Positions 32,434-59,004 of a stretch of 64,000 nt of DNA are shown in pieces; position 1 is the first letter of the stretch, and each line of letters opens with the position of its first letter. The notes beneath the pieces are model-generated. The model saw nothing but the letters and a program-made list of their open reading frames with translations. It was not told where the DNA came from and did no database searches. The position numbers and the translations under genes are program-made. The stretch is taken from assembly GCA_026125665.1 (NCBI GenBank), contig JAHCKS010000009.1:1-64000 (forward strand). The letters are read 5' to 3'. This DNA is from Rubrivivax sp. (GTDB taxonomy: Bacteria > Pseudomonadota > Gammaproteobacteria > Burkholderiales > Burkholderiaceae_C).

Positions 32434-32496
32434 GCGCGAGGCCGCCTTGCGATTGGATCGGCGTCTACAATGCGTTCAATGCCTGAACAGGAGAAG

Positions 32497-32982: not shown

Positions 32983-33014
32983 AGCTGGACGGTACGGCCC
33001 GGCAAGTCGATCAC

Positions 33015-39205: not shown

Positions 39206-39939
39206 TCGAGGGCCGCCGGGTACTGGCACTGGTGCCGGCGCGGCGAGGCTCCAAGGGCCTGCCGCTGAAGAACATTCGGCCCCTGCACGGCAAGCCGCTG
39301 CTTGCCTGGCCGATCGCGGCGGCGCGAGCGTCGCGCCATGTCGATCGCGTGGTCCTCAGCACCGACGACGCCGGGTTTGCCGAGTTGGGGCGCCAGGCCG
39401 GCGCCGACGTGCCCTTCCTTCGCCCGGCCGAACTCGCCAGCGACGACGCGCCGAGCATCGGCTTCATCCTGCACGCCCTGGATGCGCTCGACGCCGCCGG
39501 CGATCGCTTCGACTACCTGGTGCTGCTGGAGCCCACGTCGCCGCTGACCGAGGGCAGCGACATCGACGCTGCGCTGGCGGCGCTGCATGCCGCCTCGCCG
39601 CGGGCGCAGGCGCTGGTGGGCGTGAGTCCGATCGTGAACGCACATCCGGCCTTCGCTGTCCGCCTCTCGGCCGATGGGCTGCTGCGACCGTACGCGGCCG
39701 GCGCCTTCGATCAGCTGCCGCGGCGGCAGGACATCGAGCCGCTGTACGCGCTGGACGGCAGCCTGTACATCTCCACTGTCGCCTCGCTGCGGGCGCGGCG
39801 CGCCTTCTGCCACGGCGGCACGCTGCCCCACGTGATGCCCAGGTACAAATCCTTCGAGATCGACGACCTCGTCGACTTCATCTGCGTCGAGGCCCTGCTC
39901 GCCCACCGCGCGCTGCTCGACGAAGCGCCCAGCCAATGA
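39202..39939 (+). CDS. legF: CMP-legionaminic acid synthetase LegF (NeuA family)
   Basis: LegF activates legionaminic acid with CTP to CMP-Leg, the donor for glycosyltransferases. The 245-residue protein begins LALVPARRGSKGLPLKNI, the NeuA nucleotide-binding loop, and has VVLSTDDAGFAELGRQ and LVLLEPTSPLTEGSDID. The start is GTG at 39202, overlapping the previous stop as GTGA. Together with legB to ptmE it completes the pathway in one uninterrupted run. CMP-sialic acid or pseudaminate synthetase activity is less likely given LegB and LegC. Confidence 0.9.
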   Translation: MIEGRRVLALVPARRGSKGLPLKNIRPLHGKPLLAWPIAAARASRHVDRVVLSTDDAGFAELGRQAGADVPFLRPAELASDDAPSIGFILHALDALDAAGDRFDYLVLLEPTSPLTEGSDIDAALAALHAASPRAQALVGVSPIVNAHPAFAVRLSADGLLRPYAAGAFDQLPRRQDIEPLYALDGSLYISTVASLRARRAFCHGGTLPHVMPRYKSFEIDDLVDFICVEALLAHRALLDEAPSQ

Positions 39940-39967: not shown

Positions 39968-41158
39968 ATGAAGCGATGCACGAAGTGCCTGACCAAGGAG
40001 ACCGTCGACACGATCACGTTCGACGAGTTCGGGGTCTGCAGCGTCTGCCGCCAGGTCGAGTTCAAGAAGGAGAAGATCGACTGGGCGGAGCGCGGTCGCC
40101 AGCTGCAGGCCATCGTCGAGCGGCACAAGGGCCGCGGCCTGTACGACTGCATCGTGCCCTACAGCGGCGGCAAGGACAGCACTTTCCAGCTCTGGTACAT
40201 CGTCAGGCAGCTCGGGCTCAAGCCTCTGGTCGTGCGCTACAACCACTGGGGCTACCGGCCGCTGGTGGACGAGAACAACACCAGCGTCTTCAAGCAGCTG
40301 GGCGTCGACGTCGTCGAGTTCACGACCAGCTTCCAGGTCGTGCGCGAGCTGATGCTCGAGTCGCTGAAGCGGCGCGGCGACTTCTGCTGGCACTGCCACA
40401 CCGGCATCTATGCGGGCGTCATGCACATGGCGGTGCGCTTCGACACGCCGCTGATCTTCTGGGGCGAATCCACGGCGGAGTACCACAGCTGGTACACGTT
40501 CGAGGAGATGGAGGAGGTCGACGAGAAACGTTTCAACCGCGTCATGAACCAGGGCATCACCGCCGACGACATGTTCGAGTTCCTGCAGGGGCGCGTGGCC
40601 CGCCGCGACCTGTGGATGTTCGACTACCCGAAGCGGCAGGACCTGATCCGCCTGAAGGTCGAGTCGATCTGCCTGGGCAACTACATCGAGTGGAACACCA
40701 AGCGCCAGGTCGAGATCATCAAGCGCGAACTCGGCTGGAAGGGACAGGCGGTCGAGGGCGTGCCGCCCGAGTACGACTACGAGAAGATCGAGTGCACCTT
40801 CCAAGGCATGCGCGACTACGCCAAGTACGTCAAGCGCGGGTACGGCCGCACGAACCACCTGGCCTCGATCGACATCCGCAACGGCGTGCTCGACCGCGAC
40901 AGCGCGCTGCAACTGGAGGCGCGCTACGACGGCAAGCGGCCGGCCTCGCTCGACTGGTTCCTGAGGATCCTGCAGATCAGCGAGGCCGAGTTCTACGAGA
41001 TCCTGGCCAAGCACCAGGTCCATCCCTGGAAGTTCGACCCCGCCGCGGTCCAGACCGGGCCGCCGCTGCCCGACATGCCACGCTGGGACGCGACCCCGCT
41101 CGAAGGCCCCGTCGGTCCGCCGCGCGACGACCAGGGGCGCATGAAGAAGTACGTGTGA
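39968..41158 (+). CDS. N-acetyl sugar amidotransferase, copy 1 (PP-loop family)
   Basis: These ATP-dependent enzymes turn an N-acetyl group into an acetamidino (amidine) group with ammonia delivered by HisH/HisF-like partners. The 396-residue protein has the PP-loop SGGKDST (66-72), an N-terminal zinc-type cysteine set (Cys4, Cys7, Cys24, Cys27) and a further WHCH motif near residue 142. The hisH- and hisF-like genes follow directly. The location right after legF suggests the substrate is the legionaminic acid intermediate, giving a 5- or 7-acetamidino form as known in Legionella and Campylobacter. That substrate choice is inference. Confidence 0.88.
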   Translation: MKRCTKCLTKETVDTITFDEFGVCSVCRQVEFKKEKIDWAERGRQLQAIVERHKGRGLYDCIVPYSGGKDSTFQLWYIVRQLGLKPLVVRYNHWGYRPLVDENNTSVFKQLGVDVVEFTTSFQVVRELMLESLKRRGDFCWHCHTGIYAGVMHMAVRFDTPLIFWGESTAEYHSWYTFEEMEEVDEKRFNRVMNQGITADDMFEFLQGRVARRDLWMFDYPKRQDLIRLKVESICLGNYIEWNTKRQVEIIKRELGWKGQAVEGVPPEYDYEKIECTFQGMRDYAKYVKRGYGRTNHLASIDIRNGVLDRDSALQLEARYDGKRPASLDWFLRILQISEAEFYEILAKHQVHPWKFDPAAVQTGPPLPDMPRWDATPLEGPVGPPRDDQGRMKKYV

Positions 41159-41165
41159 GCCCGTC

Positions 41166-41810
41166 GTGAACCCCGCAGATCGCCACGCCGGCCCGGTCGC
41201 CATCGTCGACTACGGCATGGGCAACGTGCGCTCGCTGCGCAATGCGCTCGAGTACATCGGCGCCGAGGTCGTCATCACGGCCGACGACGCCGAGCTCGAC
41301 CGTGCCGCGCGCATCGTGCTGCCCGGCGTCGGCGCATTCGGCGACGCGATGCAGGCGATCCGCGAGCGTGGCCTGGACCGGGCGCTCACGCACCAGGCGC
41401 TCGAGCGGCACAAGCCCGTGCTTGGCATCTGCCTGGGCATGCAGCTGTTCGCGCGCAGCAGCAACGAACACGGAGAGCATGCCGGGCTCGGGTGGATCGA
41501 CGCCGACGTGCGCCGGCTGCAGGTCGAGCGCCCGCTGACCGTGCCGCATGTGGGCTGGAACAACGTCGAGTTCGATGCCGGCGAGGGGCTCTTCGCCGGC
41601 ATCCGGCCGCCGGAGTCGAACTTCTACTTCGTGCACAGCTACCACATGGTGTGCCACGAGCCCGGCGACTGCGTCGCGACGACGCGCCACGGGTCGGCGG
41701 TCACGGCCGCCGTGCGCCGCGGCAACCTGGTGGCCACGCAGTTCCACCCGGAGAAGAGCCAGGACAACGGGCTCAGGCTGCTCGCCAACTGGCTGGCGGC
41801 CACGCCGTAG
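41166..41810 (+). CDS. hisH: HisH-like glutamine amidotransferase, copy 1
   Basis: This class I glutaminase releases ammonia for the amidotransferase encoded just upstream. The 214-residue protein has the complete triad: Cys89 in GICLGMQLF, His194 and Glu196 in TQFHPEKS. The N-terminal VAIVDYGMGNVRSLRNALEY and PHVGWNNV are standard for HisH. The start is GTG at 41166. No other histidine genes (hisA, hisB, hisG) are near, so the role is sugar amidation rather than histidine synthesis, as for WbuY in E. coli O145. Confidence 0.88.
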   Translation: MNPADRHAGPVAIVDYGMGNVRSLRNALEYIGAEVVITADDAELDRAARIVLPGVGAFGDAMQAIRERGLDRALTHQALERHKPVLGICLGMQLFARSSNEHGEHAGLGWIDADVRRLQVERPLTVPHVGWNNVEFDAGEGLFAGIRPPESNFYFVHSYHMVCHEPGDCVATTRHGSAVTAAVRRGNLVATQFHPEKSQDNGLRLLANWLAATP

Positions 41811-41823
41811 CGGTCTCAAGCAC

Positions 41824-42600
41824 ATGCTCAAGAAGCGCATCATCCCGAAGTTCCTGGTACGCGACGGCCGGCTCGTGAAGGGCGTGCGGTTCCACGAGGA
41901 CTTCCGCGAGGCCGGCAATCCGGTGTCGACGGCCAAGGTCTACGACGCCTACGGGGTCGACGAGCTGATGTTCGTCGACATCGAGGCCACGCCGAAGGGC
42001 CGGCCGGCCAGCGGCACGATCGTCGAGCGCGTATCCGAGGAGGTGTTCATGCCCTTCACGGTGGGCGGGGGCATCCGCACGCTGGCGCACATCGAGTCGC
42101 TGCTGGCCAGCGGCGCCGACAAGGTGTGCATCAACTCCGCGGCGGTGGAGGACCCCTCGTTCGTGCGGCGGGCAGCCGCTCGCTTCGGCGACCAGTGCAT
42201 CGTCGTGGGCGTCGACTACAAGCGCCTGGAAGACGGGTCCCTGCGCGTGGTCGCGCACTGCGGGCAGCGCCTGACGGAGCACGAGCCGCTCGACTGGTGC
42301 CTGCGCATGCAGGACCACCACGCCGGCGAGGTGCTGCTGGTGTCGATCGACCGCGACGGCACGATGAGCGGCTTTGATGTCGAGCTGATCGCGCGCGCGA
42401 GCGAGCGACTGCAGATCCCGCTCATCGCCTCCAGCGGTGCCGGCACCTTGCAGCATTGCCGCGAGGCGCTCGAGGCCGGCGCCTCGGCAATCACGATCAG
42501 CAGCATGTTCCTGTTCTCGGACCACAGCCCGATCAAGGTGCGCACGTTCCTCGCCACCAACGGTGTCGCCGTGCGTTCGCAGCGGGGCAGCCACAGCTGA
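41824..42600 (+). CDS. hisF: HisF-like ammonia-channel subunit, copy 1
   Basis: The 258-residue TIM-barrel protein pairs with the HisH-like glutaminase. It keeps FTVGGGIRTLAHIES, DKVCINSAAVEDPSF, the second catalytic-type aspartate (VVGVDYKRLEDG) and LVSIDRDGTMSGFD. In true HisF the first strand carries the catalytic Asp11 in CLDVKDG. Here the aligned segment is KFLVRDG, so residue 11 is leucine and Cys9 is lysine. Loss of this acid suggests it no longer makes imidazole-glycerol phosphate but still channels ammonia. It lies 13 nt after the hisH-like gene. Confidence 0.87.
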   Translation: MLKKRIIPKFLVRDGRLVKGVRFHEDFREAGNPVSTAKVYDAYGVDELMFVDIEATPKGRPASGTIVERVSEEVFMPFTVGGGIRTLAHIESLLASGADKVCINSAAVEDPSFVRRAAARFGDQCIVVGVDYKRLEDGSLRVVAHCGQRLTEHEPLDWCLRMQDHHAGEVLLVSIDRDGTMSGFDVELIARASERLQIPLIASSGAGTLQHCREALEAGASAITISSMFLFSDHSPIKVRTFLATNGVAVRSQRGSHS

Positions 42601-42624
42601 ACGCGCGGGCTTGCGGGAGCGCAC

Positions 42625-43302
42625 ATGGGCTTGAAGGTCAGCAGCACCCTCACGGCAGCCGAGCTTGCGGCGCTCGCCGCCGCGCAGGCCAACGCCTTCT
42701 TCCCCGACCGGGACCCGGTCGCCGCGGCCGGCTTGGCCGCCGCCGCCGAGGGCGCGCTGGCGCGCCTGGAACACTGCTTCGTGCACATCGACAGCAAGTA
42801 CTTCTTCGACGGCCGCCGGGCCGTCTTCGACCACCTGCACGGCGACCAGTACACGATGTGGCTGTACTGGCTGGCCAGCGAGCACCACCGCCGCGGCGGC
42901 GACCCAGGCGAGTGCAAGAAGCTGTTCCTGCTGAACAAGGCGCTGCACGGCTGCGACCTGTTCTACGAGGTCGAGCTGCCGCGCATCTTCCTGCTCGTGC
43001 ATCCGCTGGGCACCGTGCTCGGCCGCGCCCGTTACGGCGACTACCTGATCGCCTACCAGCGGGTCGGCGTGGGCAGCAACCACGACGTCTATCCCACCCT
43101 CGGCGAGCACCTGACGCTGCGGCCGGGCAGCTCGGTGCTCGGACGCTGCCAGGTTGGCAGGCAGTGCACCATCGCCGCCGAGTCGCTGCTGCTCGATCGC
43201 GACCTCGGGCCGGGCAGCGTTTACATCGGCAACCCGCGCGCCTGCGTCATCCGCGCGCAGGCGGAGCCCCAACCGCTGTGGCGCACTTCACCGCAACCAT
43301 GA
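42625..43302 (+). CDS. Hexapeptide-repeat (CysE/LbetaH-type) acyltransferase
   Basis: The 225-residue protein has a helical N-terminal half (about 1-110, including HCFVHIDSKYFFDGRRAVFD) and a left-handed beta-helix C-terminal half (about 125-210: GTVLGRARYGDYLIAYQRVG, GSSVLGRCQVGRQC, GSVYIGNPRACV), an arrangement like serine acetyltransferase. It probably adds an acetyl or other acyl group to an amino sugar made by the next two genes. Its stop overlaps the following aminotransferase start (ATGA). The exact acceptor is unknown. Confidence 0.72.
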   Translation: MGLKVSSTLTAAELAALAAAQANAFFPDRDPVAAAGLAAAAEGALARLEHCFVHIDSKYFFDGRRAVFDHLHGDQYTMWLYWLASEHHRRGGDPGECKKLFLLNKALHGCDLFYEVELPRIFLLVHPLGTVLGRARYGDYLIAYQRVGVGSNHDVYPTLGEHLTLRPGSSVLGRCQVGRQCTIAAESLLLDRDLGPGSVYIGNPRACVIRAQAEPQPLWRTSPQP

Positions 43303-44681
43303 ACCCATCCGACGACGAGACGACGCAGCTGCGTGCGCGGCTGCACCGCGCGATTCCCGGGGGCGCGCACACCTACTCGCGCGGCGACGACCAGTTCCCC
43401 GGCAACGCGCCGCCGCTGCTGGTGCGCGGCGAGGGCGCCCATGTCTGGGACCACGCCGGCCGTCGTTACCTCGACTACGGCATGGCGCTGCGCGCGGTGA
43501 CCCTCGGCTACGCCGATGCCCGCGTCAACGCCGCCGCCGCCGCCGAGATGGCCAAGGGCGTCAACCTGACCCGCGCCTCGCTCACCGAGCTCGAGGCGGC
43601 CGAGGCGCTGATCGCCACGGTGCCTTCGGTGGAGATGGTCAAGTTCGGCAAGAACGGCTCGAACGTCACGACGGCGGCGGTGAAGATCGCGCGCGCCTAC
43701 ACCGGCCGGCGCTTCGTCTGCATCCCCCGCCAGCACCCCTTCTTCTCGTTCGACGACTGGTTCATCGGCACTACCGTCATGCGCCGCGGCGTCGTGCGCG
43801 AGCATGCGGCGACGACCCTCGTCTTCGACTACGGGAACGTCGCCTCGCTCGAGGCGCTGTTCGAGGCGCACCCGGGCGAGATCGCGGCGGTCATGCTCGA
43901 GCCCGCGACGACCCTCACGCCCTGCCCCGCCACGTGCGCCGGCCCGGCCGCGTGGCCCGCGACGCCCTGCGCCGGGTGCCCGCACAACGCGGGCAGCTTC
44001 CTGCACCGCGTGCAGCAGCTGTGCCGCCGCCACGGCACGGTCTTCATCCTCGACGAGATGATCACCGGCTTCCGGTGGCACCTGGCGGGCGCGCAGCGCT
44101 TCTTCGGCGTCGAGCCCGACCTGACGACCTTCGGCAAGGGCATGGCCAATGGGTTCTCGGTCGCCGCGGTTGGCGGGCGGCGCGAGCTGATGGCCGTCGG
44201 CGCCATCGACCGCGCGGGCATGGAACGCACCTTCCTGCTGTCGACTACGCACGGCGCCGAGATGCCCGGCCTCGGCGCCTTCCTGGCGACGCTGCGCATC
44301 TACCGCGACGAGGACGTCGTCGGCCACCTCTGGCGCTACGGCGCCGCGCTGCGCGACGGCATCCGCGAAGTCGCCGCGAGGCACGGGCTGTCCGCGCACG
44401 TCGCCACCGATGGACCGGCGATCAGCCTCAACGTCGTGACCCGCGGCAGCGACAGCCAACCCTCGCTCGAGCTGCGCACGCTGCTGGCGCAGGAGTTGCT
44501 CGAACGCGGGGTGATGATGCCCTGGATCGCGATCTCGCAGTCCCACGGCGAGACGGAGCTGCGGCAGACGCTGGATGCCCTGGACGGCGCGCTCGGCGTG
44601 TACCGGCAGGCGCTGGACGGTGGTGTGCAGCGCTTCCTGCGCGGCCCGGCCATCCGGCCAGTGTTCCGCGCCACGAACTGA
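43299..44681 (+). CDS. Class III aminotransferase (glutamate-1-semialdehyde aminotransferase-like) with four-Cys insert
   Basis: This 460-residue PLP enzyme resembles glutamate-1-semialdehyde aminomutase: AIPGGAHTYSRGDDQFPG at the N-terminus, FGKNGSNVTTAAVKIARAYT, FILDEMITGFRWHLAGAQ and the PLP lysine Lys280 in TTFGKGMANGFSVA. An insert after EPATT has four cysteines at 209, 213, 224 and 227, spaced C-x3-C-x10-C-x2-C, which may bind zinc or an iron-sulphur cluster. Location in a sugar cluster between an acyltransferase and an SDR points to amination of a keto-sugar or a sugar-derived substrate rather than tetrapyrrole synthesis. The substrate is unknown. Confidence 0.82.
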   Translation: MNPSDDETTQLRARLHRAIPGGAHTYSRGDDQFPGNAPPLLVRGEGAHVWDHAGRRYLDYGMALRAVTLGYADARVNAAAAAEMAKGVNLTRASLTELEAAEALIATVPSVEMVKFGKNGSNVTTAAVKIARAYTGRRFVCIPRQHPFFSFDDWFIGTTVMRRGVVREHAATTLVFDYGNVASLEALFEAHPGEIAAVMLEPATTLTPCPATCAGPAAWPATPCAGCPHNAGSFLHRVQQLCRRHGTVFILDEMITGFRWHLAGAQRFFGVEPDLTTFGKGMANGFSVAAVGGRRELMAVGAIDRAGMERTFLLSTTHGAEMPGLGAFLATLRIYRDEDVVGHLWRYGAALRDGIREVAARHGLSAHVATDGPAISLNVVTRGSDSQPSLELRTLLAQELLERGVMMPWIAISQSHGETELRQTLDALDGALGVYRQALDGGVQRFLRGPAIRPVFRATN

Positions 44682-44697
44682 GGCCCGGCCCGCGACG

Positions 44698-45501
44698 ATG
44701 GACGCACTGCAACGCTTCCGCCTCGACGGCAAGGTGGCGCTGCTCACCGGCGGCTGCGGCATTCTCGGGCGGCACTTCGCCCAGGGCCTGGCCGCCGCCG
44801 GCGCCCACGTGGCCGTGGTCGACGTCGACGCGGCCGCGGCGCAGGCGCTGGCCGCGCAGCTGCCTACGCGCTCGATCGGGTTCGCCTGCGATGTCGCCGA
44901 CGCCGAGGCGGTCGAGCGCTGCGTGCAGGCCGTGGTCGACCACTTTGGTCGCCTCGACGTGCTGCACAACAACGCCGCCAGCAAGTCGCGCGACCTGCAC
45001 GCCTTCTTCGCGCCCTTCGAGGAGTATTCGTTGGCCACCTGGCGCGAAGTGATGTCCGTCAACATCGACGGCATGTTCCTGATGGCGCAGGCCGCCGGCA
45101 AGCGCATGGCCGCCGCCGGCAGCGGCTCCATCATCCAGACCTCGTCGATCTACGGGCTCGTCGGGCCCGACAACCGCATCTACGAGGGCTCCGAGTACCT
45201 CGGCGGCCCGATCAACACGCCGGCGGTCTACGCCGCCTCCAAGGCGGCGGTGATCGGCCTGACGAAGTGGCTCGCCACCTACTGGGCGGCGCGCGGCGTG
45301 CGCGCCAACTGCCTGGTGCCCGGCGGCGTGTCGAGCGGCCAGAACAGCACCTTCTCGGAGCGCTACGCCGAGCGCGTACCGATGGGTCGCATGGCCCGGG
45401 CCGACGAACTCGTGCCGGCGCTGCTGTACCTGGCCTCGGACGCGTCGAGCTACGTCAACGGCCAGGTGCTGGCCATCGACGGCGGCTGGACCGCCTGGTA
45501 G
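44698..45501 (+). CDS. Short-chain dehydrogenase/reductase (PtmA-like)
   Basis: The 267-residue classical SDR has the cofactor loop TGGCGILGRHFAQGLA, the NNAAS motif, catalytic Ser and the Tyr-x3-Lys pair (VYAASKAAVIGLT), and ends with LAIDGGWTAW. The segment SIYGLVGPDNRIYEGSEY resembles SDRs such as PtmA found with Campylobacter flagellar glycosylation genes. It may act with the preceding aminotransferase on one sugar precursor. Cofactor preference and substrate cannot be told. Confidence 0.78.
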   Translation: MDALQRFRLDGKVALLTGGCGILGRHFAQGLAAAGAHVAVVDVDAAAAQALAAQLPTRSIGFACDVADAEAVERCVQAVVDHFGRLDVLHNNAASKSRDLHAFFAPFEEYSLATWREVMSVNIDGMFLMAQAAGKRMAAAGSGSIIQTSSIYGLVGPDNRIYEGSEYLGGPINTPAVYAASKAAVIGLTKWLATYWAARGVRANCLVPGGVSSGQNSTFSERYAERVPMGRMARADELVPALLYLASDASSYVNGQVLAIDGGWTAW

Positions 45502-45504
45502 CCC

Positions 45505-47022
45505 ATGGAGCTGATCCGCAAGCTGGGCAGCGGCTCGGCCATCTACGCCGGCACGAACCTGCTGCAGAAGGGCACGGCCCTGCTGCTGCTGCCGCTGTAT
45601 ACGACCTTCCTCGAGCCGTCGGCCTACGGCGTGCTGGCCATCGTGACGGCGACGAACGGGCTGCTCACGATCGTCTTCACGCTCGGCCTGACCGGGGCGG
45701 TGACCCGCTTCTACATGGAGTACCGCGGCGACGCCGAGCGCCTGGCGCGGTTCTGGGGCTCCATCCTGACCTTCGTGCTGCTGCTGTCGGCGCTGCTGGC
45801 CGCGGCCTTGCTGGTCGTGGGCGATGTCGTGCTCAAGCCGCTCATCGGCGACGTGCCCTTCTGGCCCTACGTGGCGCTGGGCGTGATGGCCACGTTCTTC
45901 CAGCCCTTCTTCACCACCTTCCTCGTCGTGCTGCAGACGCGCAACGAAGCGGCGCGCTACGCACGCATCTCGCTCGCCCACTTCGCGCTGACGACCGGCC
46001 TGACGGTGGCGCTGATCGTCTTCCTGGGGTGGGGGGTCACGGGCGCGCTGGCGGCCACTCTGAGCGGCGCGGTCGTGTTCTTCGCGCTGTCGTTCTGGCT
46101 CCTGCGCGGCGAGCTGCGCTTCGGCCTGCGGCGCGCCGACCTGCGCATCGCGTTCGGCTACAGCCTGCCGCAGGTCCCGCACGCGGTGGCCAGCCAGGCC
46201 AGCGCCATCACCGACCGCATCGTCATCAACGGCCACATCGGCACCGCCGCCGCGGGCGTCTACGCGCTCGGCGCCATGGTCGCGCTCGGCGTCGACATCG
46301 TCGCGCAGAGCATGAACCGCGCCTACGTGCCACTCGGCATGGCGGCCCTGAAGGGTGGCTCGCCCGACGATCTCGAGCAGCTGCGCGCCGTCGGTGCGGT
46401 GGTGGTTGCGTCGTTCTGCCTGCTCGGCGCGGCAGTGGGCGCCTTTGCCGCCGACCTCGTGTGGCTGCTCGCGACGCCCCGCTACGCCGACGCGGCCCAG
46501 GTCGTGCCGTTGCTCGCCTTTGCCGGGGTCGCCAGCGCCGTCTACTACCTGCTCGTCAACGTCATGTACTTCGACTTCCGGGCCAATCGGCTGCTGCCGC
46601 TGGCGGCCTTCGCCGGCGCGGGGCTGAACGTGGGGCTGGCATTGGCCATCGTGCCGTGGCTGGGGCTGATGGGCGCCGCGCTGTCCGCGCTGCTCGCGCA
46701 GTGCCTCAGCACGCTGCTGATCGCGGCGATGGCCTACCGGTTCGAGAAGGTGCGCTGGCAGTACGGCCGCTATGCCGTCGCCTTCGTGCTGGCGCTGGCC
46801 ACGGCATTGCTGCTGTCGCGCCTGCCCGCGGGCAGCGGCGTCGTGGCCGGCACGATCGGCATGGGCGCCAAAGCCATCGGCGTGGCCCTGCTCGCAGCGG
46901 CCCTCGGCCAGCTGTTCTGGGGCCAGGGAACGATCCTCGGGCGGGCCCTGCTGCTCGGCGTGCGCCGGCGGCCGGCGGAAGCGGCGGCGCTTTTCGTCGC
47001 GCCGCGCCGGATCGGCGCATGA
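45505..47022 (+). CDS. wzx: Wzx-type lipid-linked oligosaccharide flippase
   Basis: This 505-residue inner-membrane protein has about 12-14 hydrophobic segments and the start SAIYAGTNLLQKGTALLLLP typical of the polysaccharide transporter (MOP) superfamily. It would flip undecaprenyl-linked repeat units to the periplasm for the polymerase encoded at 49918-51204. The motif ITDRIVINGHIGTAAAGVYALG is common in Wzx proteins. Its stop overlaps the next start (ATGA). Confidence 0.9.
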   Translation: MELIRKLGSGSAIYAGTNLLQKGTALLLLPLYTTFLEPSAYGVLAIVTATNGLLTIVFTLGLTGAVTRFYMEYRGDAERLARFWGSILTFVLLLSALLAAALLVVGDVVLKPLIGDVPFWPYVALGVMATFFQPFFTTFLVVLQTRNEAARYARISLAHFALTTGLTVALIVFLGWGVTGALAATLSGAVVFFALSFWLLRGELRFGLRRADLRIAFGYSLPQVPHAVASQASAITDRIVINGHIGTAAAGVYALGAMVALGVDIVAQSMNRAYVPLGMAALKGGSPDDLEQLRAVGAVVVASFCLLGAAVGAFAADLVWLLATPRYADAAQVVPLLAFAGVASAVYYLLVNVMYFDFRANRLLPLAAFAGAGLNVGLALAIVPWLGLMGAALSALLAQCLSTLLIAAMAYRFEKVRWQYGRYAVAFVLALATALLLSRLPAGSGVVAGTIGMGAKAIGVALLAAALGQLFWGQGTILGRALLLGVRRRPAEAAALFVAPRRIGA

Positions 47023-48539
47023 AGAACTCCGCCGAGGTCCTCGCGGCGATCCATGCGCTGGAAGAGGCCTTTCCGGTCGACACCTGGCACTGTGGCGACC
47101 TGCCCCTGTGGCCCTGGTATCGCGTGCGCCTGTACGTCGACGCGGTCAACGACATGCTGGCGGCGAGCCCCTCGTTGAAGCCGTTGGCACGCCTTCGGCA
47201 CCTGGCCGGCCGCGCCGCACGTGCCGTCGGCCGCGTGCCCCTGGCCAGCTGGCGTGACCGCCGCAGCAATGCCCCCGTCCGGTCGGGCGCCACGGCCGTG
47301 CTGCTCAGCGACGGCATGTCGTTCACCCGGCTGGGTGAGGCCTGGTACGACCGTGTGATGGACCCGGTCCTGCAGGGGCTGGCGGCGCAGGGACACGCCG
47401 GCCTGAAGCTGACGCCCCTGGCCGAGGCCCATGTGCCGCGGATGGTGCCCTCGCGCTTCGTGCAGCCGCGGATCGACCTGATCAAGCTGCTGGCCACGCG
47501 GCGTCCGGTGCGGCTTCACGCGCCGGGACTGGACGCGTTACGGCTGGCCGCCGCCGAGCGCTTCCGCGTCGCGGCACCGGACGAGGCCTGGCTGCGTTTG
47601 CAGGCCGCGCGCTTGCAGGCGCTGGCGAGCTGGTTCGACAAGCCGCTGCGCGCCACGGGCGCATCGCTGGCTTTCGTGAACACCTACTACTCGCTCGAGG
47701 GTCAGGCGTTTGTCCTCGCCGCGCGGCGCCTGGGGCTGCGCACGATCGACCTGCAGCATGGCATGCAGGGACCCCAGCACGTGGCCTACGCCGGCTGGAG
47801 CCGCGTTCCGGCGGGAGGCTACGCGACGCTGCCCGACGAGTTCTGGGTCTGGAGCGAGGAGGATGCCGATGTCATCCGCGCCTGGGGCGCGCGGGCCGAG
47901 GTTCCGCATCGGCCGCGCGTGACCGGCAACTACTGGCTGGACCGCTGGCGCGACGAGAGCGAGCCCCTGGTCGCGCGCTTCCTGGCCGAAGCCGCCGCCC
48001 AGCGCGGCGGCGCCGAACGGCAGGTGCTGGTCAGCCTGATCTGGGGCGTGAGCGAGGACGAAGAGATCAACCGCCTGATCGAGGCCGCCCGCCGGTGCCC
48101 ACCCTCGTTCGGCTGGTGGTGGCGGCTGCATCCGGTCGAGGCGCATCGGCGCGCAGAACTGGCGGCAAGGCTGCAGCGGCACGGGCTGGACGGCAGCCGG
48201 GTTGGCGCCGCCACCGATCTGCCGCTGTATGCGCTCGTGCGCCGCGCCGACATTGTCGTCTCGCACTCGTCGACCGTGCTGGCCGAAGCGGCACAGCTCG
48301 GTGTGCCCTGCGTCGTCACGAGCGACTACGGTGCAGGGTTGCACGAGCGGCTCGTGCGCGACGGCCTGGCGACCCATGCCAACGATGCCGCCGGCATCGC
48401 TCGCGCCATCGTCGCCGCGGCCGCCCGCACCAGGCCGGCGGCCCGTGCTGGCGGCAGCGCCGCGGGAAGCCTCGCGCAGGCCCTGCGGGACGTCACCTGC
48501 CAGGCACACGGTCTCGTGCCCGCGGAGGCACCAGCATGA
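47019..48539 (+). CDS. Unassigned GT-B-like protein, possible glycosyl- or polyol-phosphate transferase
   Basis: The 506-residue protein is soluble, without signal peptide or clear membrane segment, and is not firmly recognised. Its N-terminal half has IDLQHGMQGPQHVAYAGWSR, and the C-terminal half has GWWWRLHPVEAHRRAELAAR and ADIVVSHSSTVLAEAAQLG-VPCVVT, features of GT-B folds in which a C-terminal loop binds the nucleotide donor. Related patterns occur in capsule and CDP-glycerol-type transferases. The location between the Wzx flippase and the second hisH suggests a role in building the repeat unit. It overlaps both neighbours by 4 nt. Confidence 0.6.
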   Translation: MKNSAEVLAAIHALEEAFPVDTWHCGDLPLWPWYRVRLYVDAVNDMLAASPSLKPLARLRHLAGRAARAVGRVPLASWRDRRSNAPVRSGATAVLLSDGMSFTRLGEAWYDRVMDPVLQGLAAQGHAGLKLTPLAEAHVPRMVPSRFVQPRIDLIKLLATRRPVRLHAPGLDALRLAAAERFRVAAPDEAWLRLQAARLQALASWFDKPLRATGASLAFVNTYYSLEGQAFVLAARRLGLRTIDLQHGMQGPQHVAYAGWSRVPAGGYATLPDEFWVWSEEDADVIRAWGARAEVPHRPRVTGNYWLDRWRDESEPLVARFLAEAAAQRGGAERQVLVSLIWGVSEDEEINRLIEAARRCPPSFGWWWRLHPVEAHRRAELAARLQRHGLDGSRVGAATDLPLYALVRRADIVVSHSSTVLAEAAQLGVPCVVTSDYGAGLHERLVRDGLATHANDAAGIARAIVAAAARTRPAARAGGSAAGSLAQALRDVTCQAHGLVPAEAPA

Positions 48540-49156
48540 TCGCCATCATCGACTACAAGGTCGGCAACCTCGGCTCGATCCGCAACATGTTCAAGAAGAT
48601 CGGGATCGACAGCGCGATCACAGACGATGCCGCCACGATCGCCGCCGCGCCGCGCCTGGTGCTGCCGGGCGTGGGCGCCTTCGATCGCGGCATGGAGGCG
48701 CTGCACGACAGCGGCCTGATCCCGCTGCTCGAGCGCCGCGTGCTCGCCGAACGCGTGCCGATCCTCGGCATCTGCCTGGGCATGCAGCTGATGGCCCGCC
48801 GCAGCGAGGAAGGGGCGCGCCCGGGCCTGGGCTGGATCGACGCCGAGGTGGTGCGCTTCCGCCCGGCCGATGCTGCGCTGAAGGTGCCGCACATGGGCTG
48901 GAACCGCATCGTGCCGACGCGCGAATGCGCGCTCATGCGCAACCTGCCGGAGCAGCCGCGGTTCTACTTCGTGCACTCCTACCACGTGCGCTGCCGCGAT
49001 GACGACGACGTCATCGCCACCACGCCCTACGGCGAGACGTTCCACTCGGCCTTCCACCGCGCCAACGTCTGGGGTGTGCAGTTCCACCCCGAGAAGAGCC
49101 ACAAGTTCGGCATGGGCCTGCTGCGCAACTTCGCGGCCTGGAGCCCCGCATGCTGA
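48536..49156 (+). CDS. hisH: HisH-like glutamine amidotransferase, copy 2
   Basis: The 206-residue glutaminase has Cys80 in GICLGMQLM and His184 with Glu186 in VQFHPEKSH, so the triad is intact. It starts IAIIDYKVGNLGSIRNMFKK and differs clearly from copy 1 at 41166-41810, so the two are not a recent duplication. It should feed ammonia to the hisF-like partner that overlaps it by 7 nt and to the amidotransferase encoded at 51201-52337. Confidence 0.88.
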   Translation: MIAIIDYKVGNLGSIRNMFKKIGIDSAITDDAATIAAAPRLVLPGVGAFDRGMEALHDSGLIPLLERRVLAERVPILGICLGMQLMARRSEEGARPGLGWIDAEVVRFRPADAALKVPHMGWNRIVPTRECALMRNLPEQPRFYFVHSYHVRCRDDDDVIATTPYGETFHSAFHRANVWGVQFHPEKSHKFGMGLLRNFAAWSPAC

Positions 49157-49908
49157 GCCTGCGTGTCATCCCCTGCCTGCTGCTGCGCGGCAGCGGCCTC
49201 GTGAAGACCGAGAAGTTCAAGGGCGGCAAGTACATCGGCGACCCAGTCAATGCCATCCGCATCTTCAACGAGAAGGAGGTCGACGAGCTGGTACTGCTCG
49301 ACATCGCCGCCTCGCGCGAAGGCCGCGCGCCTTCGTTCGCCAAGATCGAGGAGGTGGCGAGCGAGTGCTTCATGCCCCTGGCCTACGGCGGCGGCATCCG
49401 CACCGTGCAGGAGGCGGCTCGCATCCTCAAGCTTGGCGTCGAGAAGGTCATCTTCAACACCACGGCCTGGCGCTCGCCGCAGGTTCTGACGGATGCGGCG
49501 CGCGAGTTCGGTGCGCAGGCCGTGGTAGCGTCGATCGACGTGCGCCGCAGGATGTTCGGCCGCTTCGAGGTGATGGTCGAGGCCGGCACGCGCGCCACGG
49601 GCATCGACCCCGTCGAGTACGCCAGGCGCATGGAGACGGCCGGTGCCGGCGAGATCCTGCTCACGTCGATCGACCGCGACGGCACGATGAGCGGCTACGA
49701 CCTGGAGCTGGTCAGCGCCGTCTCGGGCGCGGTGGGCATCCCCGTCATCGCCTCTGGCGGCGCCGGCAGCGTGCAGGACTTCGCGGCCGCCAGGCGCAGC
49801 GGCGCCGCCGCCGTGGCCGCGGGCGCGATGTTCGTCTTCCAGGGACCGCATCGCGCCGTGCTGATCACCTATCCGGGTCCGGGTGAGCTGGCGCGTGCCC
49901 TCGGCTGA
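49150..49908 (+). CDS. hisF: HisF-like ammonia-channel subunit, copy 2
   Basis: The 252-residue TIM-barrel protein keeps LAYGGGIRTVQEAARILK, EKVIFNTTAW, the aspartate in VVASIDVRRRMFG and LTSIDRDGTMSGYD. In place of the catalytic Asp11 segment of HisF (CLDVKDG) it has CLLLRGSG, so residue 11 is leucine, and the next motif is KTEKFKGGKYIGDPVNA, a form seen in WbuZ-like sugar-amidation proteins. It overlaps the hisH-like gene by 7 nt and precedes the Wzy-like polymerase. Histidine synthesis is unlikely. Confidence 0.88.
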   Translation: MLSLRVIPCLLLRGSGLVKTEKFKGGKYIGDPVNAIRIFNEKEVDELVLLDIAASREGRAPSFAKIEEVASECFMPLAYGGGIRTVQEAARILKLGVEKVIFNTTAWRSPQVLTDAAREFGAQAVVASIDVRRRMFGRFEVMVEAGTRATGIDPVEYARRMETAGAGEILLTSIDRDGTMSGYDLELVSAVSGAVGIPVIASGGAGSVQDFAAARRSGAAAVAAGAMFVFQGPHRAVLITYPGPGELARALG

Positions 49909-49917
49909 TCGAACGCC

Positions 49918-51204
49918 ATGCCGCTGCGCCTGATGCTCCTGTTCGTGCTGCTCACGCCGCTGGCCGGGGTGGTGCAGATGGAGCTGGGCAACTACGGCCC
50001 CAGCACGGGCCTGGTGGGTGACCGCAACGGCGCCTCGTGGGCCTTCCTGGCCTATGCCCTGCTCGTGCTGCTCGCGGCCTGGGCCGTCGCCGGCAACGCG
50101 CTGATGCTCGAGCGCGGCGACGCCGCCGGCCTCCGCCGGCGCCTGGACCCGGCAACCGCCCGCCGTGTCGCGCGCTGGGTGCTCGCCTTCAACCTGGGCT
50201 TCATGCTGCTCACGCTCTACCTCTTCGGCGGATTCGACGTGCTCACCGGCGATGTCGGCAAGGGCGAGTTCCGCACCACACTCGGCGGGCTGGGCGCGTT
50301 CGCGTATCTGACGCTGAAGTGGTTCGCCCCCTCGCTGTTCGCGCTCGCGTGCACCACGCACCTGCTGGCCGGGCGGCCGTCCGAGAACCGGCGCCGGCTG
50401 TTCGCCGGGGCGGCGGTCACTTTCGTGACCGGGCTCGCCTGGGGCTTCAAGACGAGCGGCCTGTTCATCATCCTGCCGGGCATGTTCGTGCTGCTGTGGT
50501 CCGCCAGCCCGCTGCGCACGATGGGTTACTTCTTGCTGGCGCTGGGGCTGATGGTCGCGTCTTTCGCCCTGTTCGACACGCTGGAAGGCACGGTCTACGG
50601 CAGCGTCTTCGAGTTCCTGCTCGCCAGGTTCACTGTATTCCAGGGCGAGGTGTCCTGGTACCTGTGGGACCTGTGGGTGTCGGGCACGCCGATGCCCGAC
50701 TACGCCGTGACGCTGCTCGCGGCGATCGGCGACCGCCTGTTCTCGCTGCTCAGCGGCATCACGCGCGCCGACTCCGAGCAGTGGATCCTCGCCCACTACG
50801 GCAGCCTGCTCACCTACACGATTGGCCACCCCATCGAAGGCATTGAGGGCGGCCACAGCGTCACGGGCACGCCATTTTCAGAAGGCCTGATCGCTGGCGG
50901 CCTGGCCGGCGCACTGCTGTTCGGCGTGCTGGCGGGCGTGATCTTCGGTTTCGTCTTCCGGCGTCTGCGCTCAGCCCTTCGGCGCGGGCGCCCGGTGGCT
51001 GTCGCGCTGTGGAGCAACTACTCGGTGTGGTTCCTCTTCGCATGGCTGAACAGTGGGGAGATCGTGCAGCTCTTCCACATCTCGGTCTTCTTCGGCGCGG
51101 CCTTCTGCTGGGGCATGCTGCACGCCGTGCTGTGGCTGGCGAAGCCGCAGGGAAGACTCCGCCGCGCCGCGCGCGCCACGACCCTGACCCCTTCGACACC
51201 ATGA
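49918..51204 (+). CDS. wzy: Wzy-type O-antigen/oligosaccharide polymerase
   Basis: This 428-residue integral membrane protein has about ten to twelve hydrophobic segments with a larger periplasmic loop (about 230-300, including YLWDLWVSGTPMPDYAVTLL and IGHPIEGIEGGHSVTGTP). The topology and place in the cluster fit a Wzy polymerase that joins repeat units in the periplasm. Wzy proteins share little sequence, so the assignment rests on topology and context. The last codons overlap the amidotransferase start (ATGA). Confidence 0.75.
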   Translation: MPLRLMLLFVLLTPLAGVVQMELGNYGPSTGLVGDRNGASWAFLAYALLVLLAAWAVAGNALMLERGDAAGLRRRLDPATARRVARWVLAFNLGFMLLTLYLFGGFDVLTGDVGKGEFRTTLGGLGAFAYLTLKWFAPSLFALACTTHLLAGRPSENRRRLFAGAAVTFVTGLAWGFKTSGLFIILPGMFVLLWSASPLRTMGYFLLALGLMVASFALFDTLEGTVYGSVFEFLLARFTVFQGEVSWYLWDLWVSGTPMPDYAVTLLAAIGDRLFSLLSGITRADSEQWILAHYGSLLTYTIGHPIEGIEGGHSVTGTPFSEGLIAGGLAGALLFGVLAGVIFGFVFRRLRSALRRGRPVAVALWSNYSVWFLFAWLNSGEIVQLFHISVFFGAAFCWGMLHAVLWLAKPQGRLRRAARATTLTPSTP

Positions 51205-52337
51205 ACGCGAACACTTCTCATCGCCACCTCCACCAGGTCTGCACGCGCTGCGTGATGGACACCACCGACGTCGATATCACCTTCGACGCGGCGGGCGTGT
51301 GCAGCCACTGCCACCGCTACGACCGAGTCGCCCGAGAGCGGCTCATCCCCCCGGCCGAGCGGCCGGCGCGGCTGGCCGCCCTGGTCGCCGACATCAAGGC
51401 GGACGGTCGAGGCAAGCCCTACGACTGCATCATCGGCGTCAGCGGCGGCGTCGACAGCACCTATGTCGCCTGGCTCGTGAAGGACCTCGGCCTGAGGCCG
51501 CTGGCGGTGCATCTGGACAACGGCTGGGACTCCGAACTGGCCGTGGCCAACATCGAGAAGACACTGAAGACGCTGGGCTTCGACCTGTACACGCACGTCA
51601 TCGACTGGGACGAGTTCCGCGACCTGCAGGTGGCATTCCTGAAGGCGGCCACACCCGACGGGGAGGTACCCACCGACCACGCCATCGCTGCGCTGCTGTA
51701 CGAACAGGCGGCGCGGCACGGTTTGCGGCACGTGATCTCGGGAACCAACGTCGCCACCGAGGCGGTGCTGCCCGAGAAGTGGGGCTACGGCTACTTCGAC
51801 TGGCGCTACGTGCGCGACGTGCACCGTCGTTTCGGCAAGCGCCGGCTAACCACCTATCCGCACTTCTCGCTGCTGAAGCTGGCCTATTTCATCTTCGTGC
51901 GCCGTATCCGCATGGTCTCGCTGCTCAACCACGTCGAGTACGACAAGGCGCAGGCGATGCAGCTGCTGCAGGACAAGCTCGGCTGGGTGTACTACGGCGG
52001 CAAGCACTACGAGTCCGTCTACACGCGCTTCTACCAGGCCTATGTGCTGCCGCGCAAGTTCGCCATCGACAAGCGCAGGGCGCACCTGTCGAGCCTGATC
52101 CTGTCGCGCCAGATGACGCGCGAGCAGGCGCTCGCCGCGCTGCAGGAGCCGGTGCACCCGGAGCGCGCGCTGCTCGAGGATCGCGACTACAGCATCAAGA
52201 AGCTCGGCCTCGATGTCGAGGAGTTCGAGCGCATCATGGCCAGTCCGAACCGGACCTTCCACGACTACCGCACGAGCCGGGGCTGGTTCGCGATCGCGAA
52301 GCGCGTGCTCAATTCCGGCCGCCGCCTCATCGGATGA
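51201..52337 (+). CDS. N-acetyl sugar amidotransferase, copy 2 (WbuX/WbpG-like)
   Basis: The 378-residue protein has the PP-loop SGGVDST (81-87) and the family start CTRCVMDTTDVDITFDAAGV with the zinc-type cysteines 14, 17, 34 and 37. It is the classical WbuX/WbpG type, which in E. coli O145 makes an acetamidino group on L-FucNAc and in Pseudomonas O5 on a diamino uronic acid. It is separated from its hisH/hisF partners by the polymerase gene. Sequence differs widely from copy 1, in PP-loop and length. The target sugar is not known. Confidence 0.9.
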   Translation: MNANTSHRHLHQVCTRCVMDTTDVDITFDAAGVCSHCHRYDRVARERLIPPAERPARLAALVADIKADGRGKPYDCIIGVSGGVDSTYVAWLVKDLGLRPLAVHLDNGWDSELAVANIEKTLKTLGFDLYTHVIDWDEFRDLQVAFLKAATPDGEVPTDHAIAALLYEQAARHGLRHVISGTNVATEAVLPEKWGYGYFDWRYVRDVHRRFGKRRLTTYPHFSLLKLAYFIFVRRIRMVSLLNHVEYDKAQAMQLLQDKLGWVYYGGKHYESVYTRFYQAYVLPRKFAIDKRRAHLSSLILSRQMTREQALAALQEPVHPERALLEDRDYSIKKLGLDVEEFERIMASPNRTFHDYRTSRGWFAIAKRVLNSGRRLIG

Positions 52338-53566
52338 AACCCCTGCGCGTGCTCTACCTGCACATGATCGGACCATTCGGTGGCTCCTCGCGCAGCCTGT
52401 TCGAGGTCGTGCGGGCGTTCCCGGCCGGCGCGGTGCAGGCCCACTTCCTGACGCAGCGAGGCACCGCGACGCCGTTCTTCGCGCAGCTCGGCGAAGTCGA
52501 GGAAGTATGGGGAATGGCGCGGCTCGACCACACTCGTGCCGGCCACTACCGGGGCCTGCGCTGGCTGGTGGCACTGCGCGAGCTGGCCTATCTGCCGGTC
52601 ACGCTGGCGGGACTGCTGCGCGCCCGGCGTCGCTTCGGCGAAGTGGACGTCGTGCATGTCAACGACATCACCGGCGGCATCGTGCTCTGGCTGGCACGGC
52701 GCATCTTTGCCGCCCCGGTCCTGCTGCACGTGCGTGCCGTCGTGAACGAGGACCGCACGCTCGCGCGCACACGCTGGCTGCACCGGCTGCTCGAGAAGCA
52801 GGCCGCCTGCGTCGTGGCGATCGACGAGACCGTGCGCGCCAGCCTGCCATCGAACCTCGCGGTCCAGGTCATCCACAACACCTTCGCGCCGGCGCGCGCG
52901 GCCGGCAGCGACCCGGCATTCGAAGTGCGCCTCGGCCAGCTGCGACCCGGGTCGTTCAAGGTCGGCTTCGTCGGCAACCTGCTCAGGGTCAAAGGCATCC
53001 TCGACCTGCTGGAGGCGACGCGGCTGCTGCGCTCGCGCGGCGTCGACGTCGAGGTGCTGATCGTCGGCGACGATGCACGCGACTCGCGCGGCCTGCGCGC
53101 CCGGATCCTGCGCACGCTGTCGCTGGCCCAGGACGTACGCGCCGAAGCCGAGGCCTTCCTGCGCCGGCACGACCTGCAGGACTGCGTGCACCTGCTCGGC
53201 TTCACGAGGGAGATCGCGCTCGCTTACCGCAAGATGGACGTGCTGTGTTTCCCGTCGCACCTCGACGCACCGGGCCGGCCCGTCTTCGAGGCCGCCTTCT
53301 TCGGCGTGCCGAGCATCGTCGCGCTGCGCGAGCCGCGGGCCGACACGCTGGTGCACGACGTCACCGGCCTGGCCGTGGCGGCCCACGCGCCTCAGGCGCT
53401 GGCCGAGGCGATCGAGCGCCTCGCTCGCGACCCCGCCGCGCGCCAGCGCATGGGCGAGGCCGCGCGCCGACTCGCCGAGAGGAACTTCGACGCCCAGCAC
53501 AATGCCGGGCGGCTGCTGGCGCTGTACGAGCGGATCAGGCCCGAGGGCGCCACGCACGGCCCTTGA
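52334..53566 (+). CDS. Family 4 glycosyltransferase
   Basis: The 410-residue GT-B enzyme starts VLYLHMIGPFGGSSRSLFEV, with VGFVGNLLRVKGILDLLEA at the start of the C-terminal domain, and the donor-binding region CFPSHLDAPGRPVFEAAFFG with the E-x7-E pair (residues in PVFEAAFFGVP). It probably adds a sugar to the undecaprenyl-linked repeat unit. The ATG overlaps the amidotransferase stop (ATGA). Donor and acceptor are unknown. Confidence 0.85.
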   Translation: MKPLRVLYLHMIGPFGGSSRSLFEVVRAFPAGAVQAHFLTQRGTATPFFAQLGEVEEVWGMARLDHTRAGHYRGLRWLVALRELAYLPVTLAGLLRARRRFGEVDVVHVNDITGGIVLWLARRIFAAPVLLHVRAVVNEDRTLARTRWLHRLLEKQAACVVAIDETVRASLPSNLAVQVIHNTFAPARAAGSDPAFEVRLGQLRPGSFKVGFVGNLLRVKGILDLLEATRLLRSRGVDVEVLIVGDDARDSRGLRARILRTLSLAQDVRAEAEAFLRRHDLQDCVHLLGFTREIALAYRKMDVLCFPSHLDAPGRPVFEAAFFGVPSIVALREPRADTLVHDVTGLAVAAHAPQALAEAIERLARDPAARQRMGEAARRLAERNFDAQHNAGRLLALYERIRPEGATHGP

Positions 53567-58939: not shown

Positions 58940-59004
58940 GGCCGCGCGGGCCTCCAGGCTGGGAAGTCGCCCGCCCGCGGTCCCACTAGGACTTCTTGTC
59001 ACGG

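Follow-up and report, generated by a model that had tools for sequence, protein, structure and literature searches.

Why would a single polysaccharide gene run carry two complete sets of the genes expected to make acetamidino sugars? The question is raised by a stretch of Rubrivivax sp. DNA, hereafter the window, which comprises bases 1-64000 of contig C258 (GenBank JAHCKS010000009.1; 99,777 bases) in an assembly of 6.28 Mb and 268 contigs that is 88.6% complete. Each set consists of an amidotransferase (AT), a HisH glutaminase and a HisF protein. Set 1 is a tight trio of AT1 (39968..41158), HisH1 (41166..41810) and HisF1 (41824..42600); in set 2, a Wzy-like gene lies between the HisH2 (48536..49156) and HisF2 (49150..49908) genes and AT2 (51201..52337). 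All six genes, including HisH1 with its GTG start, are open and lie among 27 genes, from 32979 to 63476, every one of which is on the + strand. Because the intergenic gaps are only -7 to 32 bp from a regulator gene at 32470 through the glycosyltransferase gene GT4a next to AT2 (beyond GT4a they reach 162 bp), a single transcript is plausible from the spacing. A preliminary description of this DNA had reported both sets and had argued that they are not a fresh duplicate. Both points hold: the PP-loops differ (SGGKDST in AT1, SGGVDST in AT2), and fresh duplication was ruled out by identities of 27% over 268 aa between AT1 and AT2, 46% between the HisH proteins and 41% between the HisF proteins.

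The answer that we favor, with moderate confidence, is that the locus encodes two dedicated acetamidino-forming systems that act on two different sugars, probably of one polymer. We infer the chemistry, the substrates, the single polymer and the partner specificity from the family scores, the trees, the broken cyclase centers of the HisF proteins, a rule for the sharing of HisH-HisF pairs, natural fusions, a legionaminic-acid (Leg) gene block, and WbpB/D/E-like and TviB-like genes elsewhere in the genome, all of which support this reading.

Against the WbuX-type model TIGR03573 (cut-off 203.2), AT1 scored 363 bits and AT2 291.9 bits, and AT2 is 40% identical to E. coli O145 WbuX. Both proteins contain an SGGxDS PP-loop and a CxxC..GxCxxC tetracysteine motif; the SGGxDS loop and the tetracysteine zinc motif are described as features of N-acetyl sugar amidotransferases (PMC10607449). 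By score and motif, AT1 and AT2 thus qualify as members of this family (WbuX/NASAT), for which acetamidino-sugar formation is predicted. The glutaminases scored 232 (HisH1, with its catalytic Cys present) and 235 bits (HisH2) against TIGR01855 (cut-off 105). HisF2 passed the AglZ/HisF2 model NF038364 (352.4 bits, cut-off 310) and fell just under the WbuZ cut-off (298.3 vs 299.7), while HisF1 lay under every equivalog cut-off (WbuZ, 273.6/299.7; hisF, 254.3/294.55; NF038364, 231.2/310).

The homology of these HisH and HisF proteins to histidine enzymes might suggest that at least one of the sets is an inactive leftover or supplies additional histidine-biosynthesis genes. The genome, however, has its own his cluster with HisH, HisA and HisF on contig C242. 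The cyclase residues of HisF are D11 and D130 (PMC11350729), and in an alignment of 78 HisF rows both were found in the genome's own HisF alone and in none of the 77 glycan-type rows. HisF1 and HisF2 both have L11 and keep D130, as members of a group of 54 glycan rows with an aliphatic residue at position 11; they therefore lack the D11/D130 pair expected of an imidazole glycerol phosphate synthase HisF. Another 20 glycan rows keep D11 and have E130, and three further rows are odd. The amidotransferases of the 20 D11/E130 loci all belong to a 26-row clade with the Legionella enzyme. Judged from these alignments, the cyclase pair has been lost from glycan HisF proteins in at least two different ways. 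As the nucleophilic Cys is present in 80/80 HisH rows, HisH should still be able to make ammonia while HisF lacks the cyclase pair. The frames are open and orthologous sets exist in other genomes. We rejected the histidine-enzyme explanation, which we regard as scarcely credible, on the basis of the separate his genes, the cyclase residues and the trees; the grouping of both modules with histidine enzymes, which the preliminary description had named as one outcome that would speak against its reading, was not seen. In the HisF tree, the genome's own HisF lies beside a 21-row clade of HisF proteins from nonulosonic acid (NulO) loci, and, because this is the single true HisF included, we make no claim about the origin of glycan HisF.

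The trees proposed in the preliminary description were built, and they place the two sets in different clades. A tree of 100 amidotransferase rows (99 of 175 segments plus one typed reference) splits, across a long branch with full support, into superclade I (55 rows) and superclade II (45 rows). Superclade I holds AT1, the Legionella enzyme LpNASAT (PDB 8wex) and enzymes whose genes adjoin NeuB in many genomes; AT2 and E. coli O145 WbuX fall in superclade II. HisF2 lies in a 35-row clade with WbuZ (support 100) and HisH2 in a 35-row clade with WbuY (support 98), and HisF1 and HisH1 are outside these clades. The HisF and HisH trees contain 78 of 135 and 80 of 133 segments, respectively; for all three trees, most scan loci, short segments and duplicate segments were left out. 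The trees were built by a quick method and include some long branches; 8/100 amidotransferase rows lack the PP-loop pattern and 21/100 the tetracysteine pattern, trimmed rows included. With the sugar contexts also different, the two sets are, by these trees and identities, evidently old and distinct.

If the sets are distinct, one may ask whether a HisH-HisF pair can serve any amidotransferase. We classified 19 loci with two amidotransferases from surveys of 399 genomes of the order and 200 of the family, samples that have a few genomes in common. All seven loci that combine the superclades have two HisH and two HisF genes, and all 12 loci with two amidotransferases of one superclade have a single HisH-HisF pair in the stretch read (Fisher 2e-5, or 3e-4 with near-duplicates merged by eye). 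Among those 12, two encode HisF fused to the amidotransferase, in genomes G386 (L048:13801-15882, +) and G002 (L049:3370-5496, -). Each fusion is one open frame of ~700 aa with HisF at the N-terminal and the WbuX-type amidotransferase at the C-terminal end, and these fusions point to direct hand-over of ammonia from HisF to the amidotransferase. A hand-picked scan of 27 genomes (28 of 79 loci named, partly for interesting context, so that its counts are not survey frequencies) gave at most one pair in 6/6 same-superclade loci (in G594, where the stretch ends nearby, no HisH was seen) and two pairs in 5/8 cross-superclade loci. The rule would also fit Campylobacter jejuni, in which PseA and PtmG are accompanied by a single hisH-hisF pair of this type. 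These counts suggest that a HisH-HisF pair is matched to the superclade of its amidotransferase, and two kinds of amidine sugar would therefore need two full sets. In the simplest interpretation, HisF would dock on the amidotransferase and feed it, so that one pair could serve two enzymes of the same superclade and an enzyme of the second superclade would need its own.

The preliminary description had called two modules in one locus unusual. They are uncommon, but they recur. In the order sample, an over-cut-off WbuX match was found in 48/399 genomes, two such matches within 13 kb in 13/399, and two full sets in 4/399 (that of the window, G027, G249 and G064). In the family sample, 25 genomes had AT1 matches and 12 had AT2 matches, with both in 5 vs 1.5 expected (one-sided Fisher 0.009); the two matches are within 13 kb in 4/5 of these genomes and on separate contigs in G478. 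A wider scan, of which we used the best 80 of 584 confirmed stretches, added dual sets in G588, G589, G593, G598 and G607, which are Burkholderiaceae, Rhizobiaceae, Roseobacter, Rhizobiales and Chitinophagaceae records. Together with the window, at least 11 other genomes thus carry dual sets, each combining superclades I and II. Each set is of a known enzyme kind, and their combination in one locus is a variant that is uncommon yet recurs. In the open-license literature searched, neither dual sets nor a polymer with two amidines were described, which says little since most structural papers fall outside its coverage.

What, then, are the two sugars? Directly upstream of AT1, on the same strand, lie genes for a LegB-type NAD-dependent 4,6-dehydratase (32979..34025; TIGR04180, 523 bits, cut-off 475), a LegC-family aminotransferase (34034..35218; TIGR04181, 529 bits, cut-off 420), a NeuC/LegG-type hydrolyzing epimerase (35251..36411; TIGR03568, 436 bits, cut-off 236), a NeuB/LegI-type nonulosonate synthase (36427..37503; TIGR03569, 460 bits, cut-off 400) and a NeuD-family acetyltransferase (37503..38159; TIGR03570, 210 bits, cut-off 161). 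They are followed by a CBS-domain nucleotidyltransferase (38156..39205), which matches sugar-1-phosphate nucleotidyltransferases only below cut-off, recurs in NulO blocks and is presumably PtmE-like, and by a CMP-nonulosonate synthetase-like gene (NeuA/LegF; 39202..39939; TIGR03584, 135 bits, below the cut-off of 206) with several possible starts. LegB, LegC, NeuC/LegG and NeuB/LegI, all above their NCBIfam cut-offs in one block, identify a legionaminic acid pathway, and this strong context bears out the earlier suggestion that one of the sugars is probably a legionaminic acid derivative. Downstream of HisF1, also on the + strand, are a serine-acetyltransferase-like gene (AcT, 42625..43302; NF041874, 48 bits, below cut-off), a class III aminotransferase (ATIII, 43299..44681; PF00202; NF004856, 609 bits, cut-off 486; 54-73% identical homologues in G005, G477 and G327) and a short-chain dehydrogenase (44698..45501; best NCBIfam match 185 bits, below cut-off; 71% homologues in G005 and G477).

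G005 and G477 have orthologues of AT1 (81-83%) whose HisH1, HisF1, AcT and NeuA-like neighbors are the same as in the window, AcT adjoining HisF1 and the NeuA-like gene adjoining AT1 in both. The class III aminotransferase and dehydrogenase genes adjoin AcT in G005 and are ~13 kb away in G477; the Leg genes of G477 share 57-75% identity with those of the window. More distant relatives of AT1 (51-53%) are encoded next to a NeuB-like gene in G411 and on a short contig in G478. Because G005 has a single over-cut-off WbuX gene genome-wide and G477 has no AT2 match at 1e-20, set 1 also exists alone. The product of set 1 is most likely a legionaminic-acid amidine; as AT1 lies outside the Legionella subclade, we only infer the position of amidination and the exact substrate.

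Set 2 should amidinate a sugar other than that of set 1. Its nearest relative among the matches listed is in G588 (L110), a Burkholderiaceae metagenome-assembled genome (MAG), in which the order of genes is the same: Wzx (58%), GTx (54%), HisH2 (66%), HisF2 (72%), AT2 (76%), GT4a (62%), a bi-domain oxidoreductase (72%) and GT4b (77%). WbpE-WbpD-WbpB-like genes and then a lysS-like gene (assigned by eye) lie at the far flank both there and on the window contig. In the slot of set 1, G588 instead has a block that looks pseudaminate-like by eye and carries a superclade I enzyme of another lineage, so set 1 differs while set 2 stays. In G327 (L096), a NulO block with the class III aminotransferase adjoins a block that encodes a set 2-type amidotransferase with HisH, HisF and the bi-domain oxidoreductase, and the 20 kb examined contain no AT1-type set.

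One hypothesis is that the substrate of set 2 is a 2,3-diacetamido-uronic acid, as in the formation of ManNAc3NAmA. It is favored by three genes farther along the contig (C258:75185-78018), WbpB-, WbpD- and WbpE-like, which matched PDB entries at 1e-182, 4e-92 and 9e-128; these matches were used because NCBIfam gave no equivalogs for the three proteins. Only WbpE is named in a PDB title; the others read "dehydrogenase/oxidoreductase" and "lipopolysaccharides biosynthesis acetyltransferase", and we take these entries to be WlbA/WbpB and WlbB/WbpD. The company of genes is extended by a WecB/WbpI-type 2-epimerase in the run (57824..58939, +; TIGR00236, 285 bits), for which the first PDB match is a UDP-GlcNAc 2-epimerase (1.5e-76) and the second a UDP-2,3-diacetamido-glucuronate 2-epimerase (1.9e-68), and by a TviB-like dehydrogenase on C214, a WbpA-type candidate that scored 485 bits, below the cut-off of 592. 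This sugar is the leading candidate, although we hold it tentatively, at somewhat less than an even chance.

The second candidate, clearly the less probable of the two, is FucNAc: set 2 would make L-FucNAm, and the FucNAc genes would be unassembled or would have given way to those for the epimerase and the bi-domain oxidoreductase. AT2, GT4a and HisF2 are close to those of loci in G027, G589, G593 and G598, where FnlA and FnlC follow GT4a (with FnlB in 3/4), which favors L-FucNAm. Among 74 AT2-type loci, FnlA and FnlC accompany 6/19 with NeuB vs 1/55 without, counts that are rough only because they use fixed identity thresholds, which misjudge at least G588 (WbpB/WbpE) and L161 (FnlA threshold). 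The 74 derive from the 79 scan loci: for five, a longer region from the genome in question was used, and loci shorter than 15 kb were dropped. Moreover, the E. coli O145 locus unites neuB, WbuXYZ and FnlABC, and LfnA of P. aeruginosa O12 is reportedly tied to L-FucNAm. In the Rubrivivax genome itself, however, neither FnlA (the best candidate, on C236, is PseB, 517 bits) nor FnlB (best 34 bits vs a cut-off of 500) was found, an absence that is not final because the genome is 88.6% complete. In the closest relative, G588, the 40 kb examined contain no FnlC, and the only FnlA relative in them is PseB-like and far from AT2. The remaining probability belongs to another sugar.

These observations can be combined in a mechanism. 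In each set, HisH would hydrolyze glutamine, the ammonia would pass through a HisF without a cyclase center, and the PP-loop amidotransferase would use ATP to activate the N-acetyl group of the sugar so that ammonia replaces the oxygen, giving N-C(=NH)CH3. Set 1 would take the nonulosonic acid that the Leg genes next to it supply, probably as CMP-Leg5,7diNAc, and convert it to a 5-acetamidino form. Set 2 would act on a different nucleotide-linked N-acetyl sugar, UDP-2,3-diacetamido-uronic acid being the first choice and UDP-L-FucNAc the second. Because HisF-HisH pairs would not be shared across superclades, two full sets would be kept, and a polymer with two amidines is the likely product.

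One could envision two other arrangements. Both sets might act on one and the same nonulosonic acid, for instance by amidinating two of its positions or by working under different conditions, as their location within one gene run would allow. We consider this improbable, since 55/74 AT2-type loci have no NeuB hit in the stretch examined, E. coli O145 WbuX, which serves FucNAm, belongs to superclade II, and two superclade I enzymes use a single HisH-HisF pair in the loci examined. Alternatively, the sets might belong to two glycans encoded side by side, such as an O-antigen and a second polysaccharide or a glycoprotein. On the opposite strand, 63-78 kb of C258 does hold more glycan genes, among them one for an initiating sugar-phosphate transferase-like protein and one that looks by eye like a flippase gene. 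Yet a tight + strand run holds the two sets, which flank one Wzx-like gene and one Wzy-like gene, and Wzx, GTx, HisH2, HisF2, AT2 and GT4a remain together in G588, so we think that two separate glycans are unlikely, if less so than a shared nonulosonic acid.

Several observations weigh against our preferred explanation, two systems for two sugars. AT1 forms its own 5-row group in superclade I, outside the LpNASAT subclade. The WbpB/D/E-like genes are encoded on the strand opposite AT2, at a distance of ~23 kb, and the closest long-flank relatives of AT2 in the best 80 of 584 stretches mostly have FnlA and FnlC. Three cross-superclade loci of the hand-picked scan have a single pair: in G590 the type I amidotransferase is ~1 kb from a contig end, in G603b a third amidotransferase is below cut-off, and in G599 the type I amidotransferase is split by a stop. 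The sharing rule was read in stretches of ~17-40 kb, with the superclade of rows outside the tree assigned by best BLAST hit, and it draws on related genomes that are not independent and on two surveys that overlap by a few genomes.

Several known systems come close to this locus. The preliminary description had cited the WbuX, WbpG and Leg amidation systems as precedents, and this was partly upheld: AT1 is in the Legionella superclade and set 2 in the WbuX, WbuY and WbuZ clades, but AT1 is outside the LpNASAT subclade and the FucNAc genes that accompany WbuXYZ were not found. All three set 2 proteins share a superclade or clade with E. coli O145 WbuXYZ (L-FucNAm), where a neuB locus is also present; there, however, the 18 kb examined hold a single set with FnlABC adjacent, whereas the window genome has two sets and no FnlA or FnlB was found in it. 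The likeness to WbpG-HisH2-HisF2 of P. aeruginosa O5 (D-ManNAc3NAmA; role of WbpG, PMC10607449) consists of HisF2 passing the model named after HisF2 and of WbpB/D/E-like genes on the same contig; the window differs in having a second set and its WbpA-type candidate on another contig. Of Legionella LpNASAT (ORF28) and Campylobacter PtmG, which form CMP-Leg5Am7Ac, LpNASAT was the one placed in the tree, and it is in the superclade of AT1. Leg genes lie beside the Legionella amidotransferase, and the Campylobacter and Legionella counterparts convert CMP-Leg5Ac7Ac to CMP-Leg5Am7Ac (PMC3766260). The partner HisF of the LpNASAT subclade is mostly of the D11 and E130 type (the 20 rows above), in contrast to L11 and D130 of HisF1. 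By its listing, cluster B of Sphingomonas sp. LM7, a surface polysaccharide cluster, has gene company similar to the flank of set 2: WbuX, AglZ/HisF2, HisH, a nucleotide-sugar dehydrogenase, a PLP aminotransferase, a WxcM acetyltransferase and an MviM dehydrogenase (PMC11340318). Its listed insertion sites include one HisF/HisH pair and no Leg genes, unlike the two pairs and Leg block of the window. Finally, the Plesiomonas shigelloides O51 O-antigen, GlcNAc3NRA-FucNAm-QuiNAc, joins a 2,3-diamino-uronic acid to an amidino sugar (PMC3210612), but the unit as printed has a single amidino sugar and no nonulosonic acid, unlike the polymer proposed here.

The remaining genes of the run are consistent in strand. 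A Wzx-like flippase (45505..47022, +) was assigned by eye from its hydrophobic sequence and place and is 58% identical to the syntenic G588 gene. GTx (47019..48539, +; PF13692, 27.9 bits, cut-off 27) is a candidate nonulosonate glycosyltransferase; a gene of 430-511 aa lies directly upstream of HisH2 in 11/12 dual loci, some of these being without recognizable similarity. The putative Wzy-like polymerase (49918..51204, +) was likewise recognized by eye, from its hydrophobicity and position. Homologues of GT4a (52334..53566, +; 37-62%) are at most two genes from AT2 in G027, G588, G589, G593, G598 and G580. Downstream are a Gfo/Idh protein (53725-54858), for which a PDB search gave no specific relative, and the bi-domain oxidoreductase (alcohol dehydrogenase, ADH, plus Gfo/Idh; 55677..57827, +), with 69-72% homologues adjoining or near set 2 in G327, G365 and G588. 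The operon also holds a heparinase II/III-like protein (58996-60678) and an arylsulfotransferase-family protein (60675-62072), and the + strand run ends with GT4b (62235..63476, +; 66% to G327, 77% to G588). A heparinase-like gene also adjoins the bi-domain oxidoreductase in G327 and is near that gene in G365.

Elsewhere in the genome (G000), a third WbuX-type amidotransferase over cut-off is encoded on C238 (L058:8606-10015, -), with no HisH or HisF nearby. It adjoins a PF01425 amidase, followed by Gfo/Idh and DegT genes, and G243 has the same four genes at 51-63% identity plus a fifth at 37%. A match of this level was found among the 399 order genomes only in the genome itself and G243; six others reached 37-40%. 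From this gene company, the amidase may replace HisH as the source of ammonia. A 716-aa protein encoded at C258:70558-72708 combines a glutamine amidotransferase domain with a WbuX-like stretch (residues 353-478; 105 bits, below cut-off), and partial WbuX matches of similar score are present in other genomes. At C236:20088-21059, a PseB gene over cut-off lies beside NeuB-like and NeuA-like genes, a separate pseudaminic-acid-like block that may serve flagellin.

Sugar amidines place positive charge at the cell surface, and the acetamidino group of P. aeruginosa O12 has been proposed to affect adhesion (PMC11637443). A bolder reading, doubtful as a whole, joins three proposals: that two different cationic amidine sugars beside carboxylated sugars would make the polymer a strongly zwitterionic surface; that HisH-HisF pairs are obligate, superclade-matched ammonia adaptors unable to cross, for which reason evolution would keep joining two whole sets; and that the AT1 lineage, with its conserved acetyltransferase, class III aminotransferase and dehydrogenase in three genomes, makes a nonulosonate amidine not yet described. 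The amidotransferase family is little known structurally or functionally (PMC10607449). The most useful result is the sharing rule, which gives a testable claim on partner specificity and would serve as a genome-level predictor, the count of HisH-HisF pairs indicating the number of kinds of amidine sugar.

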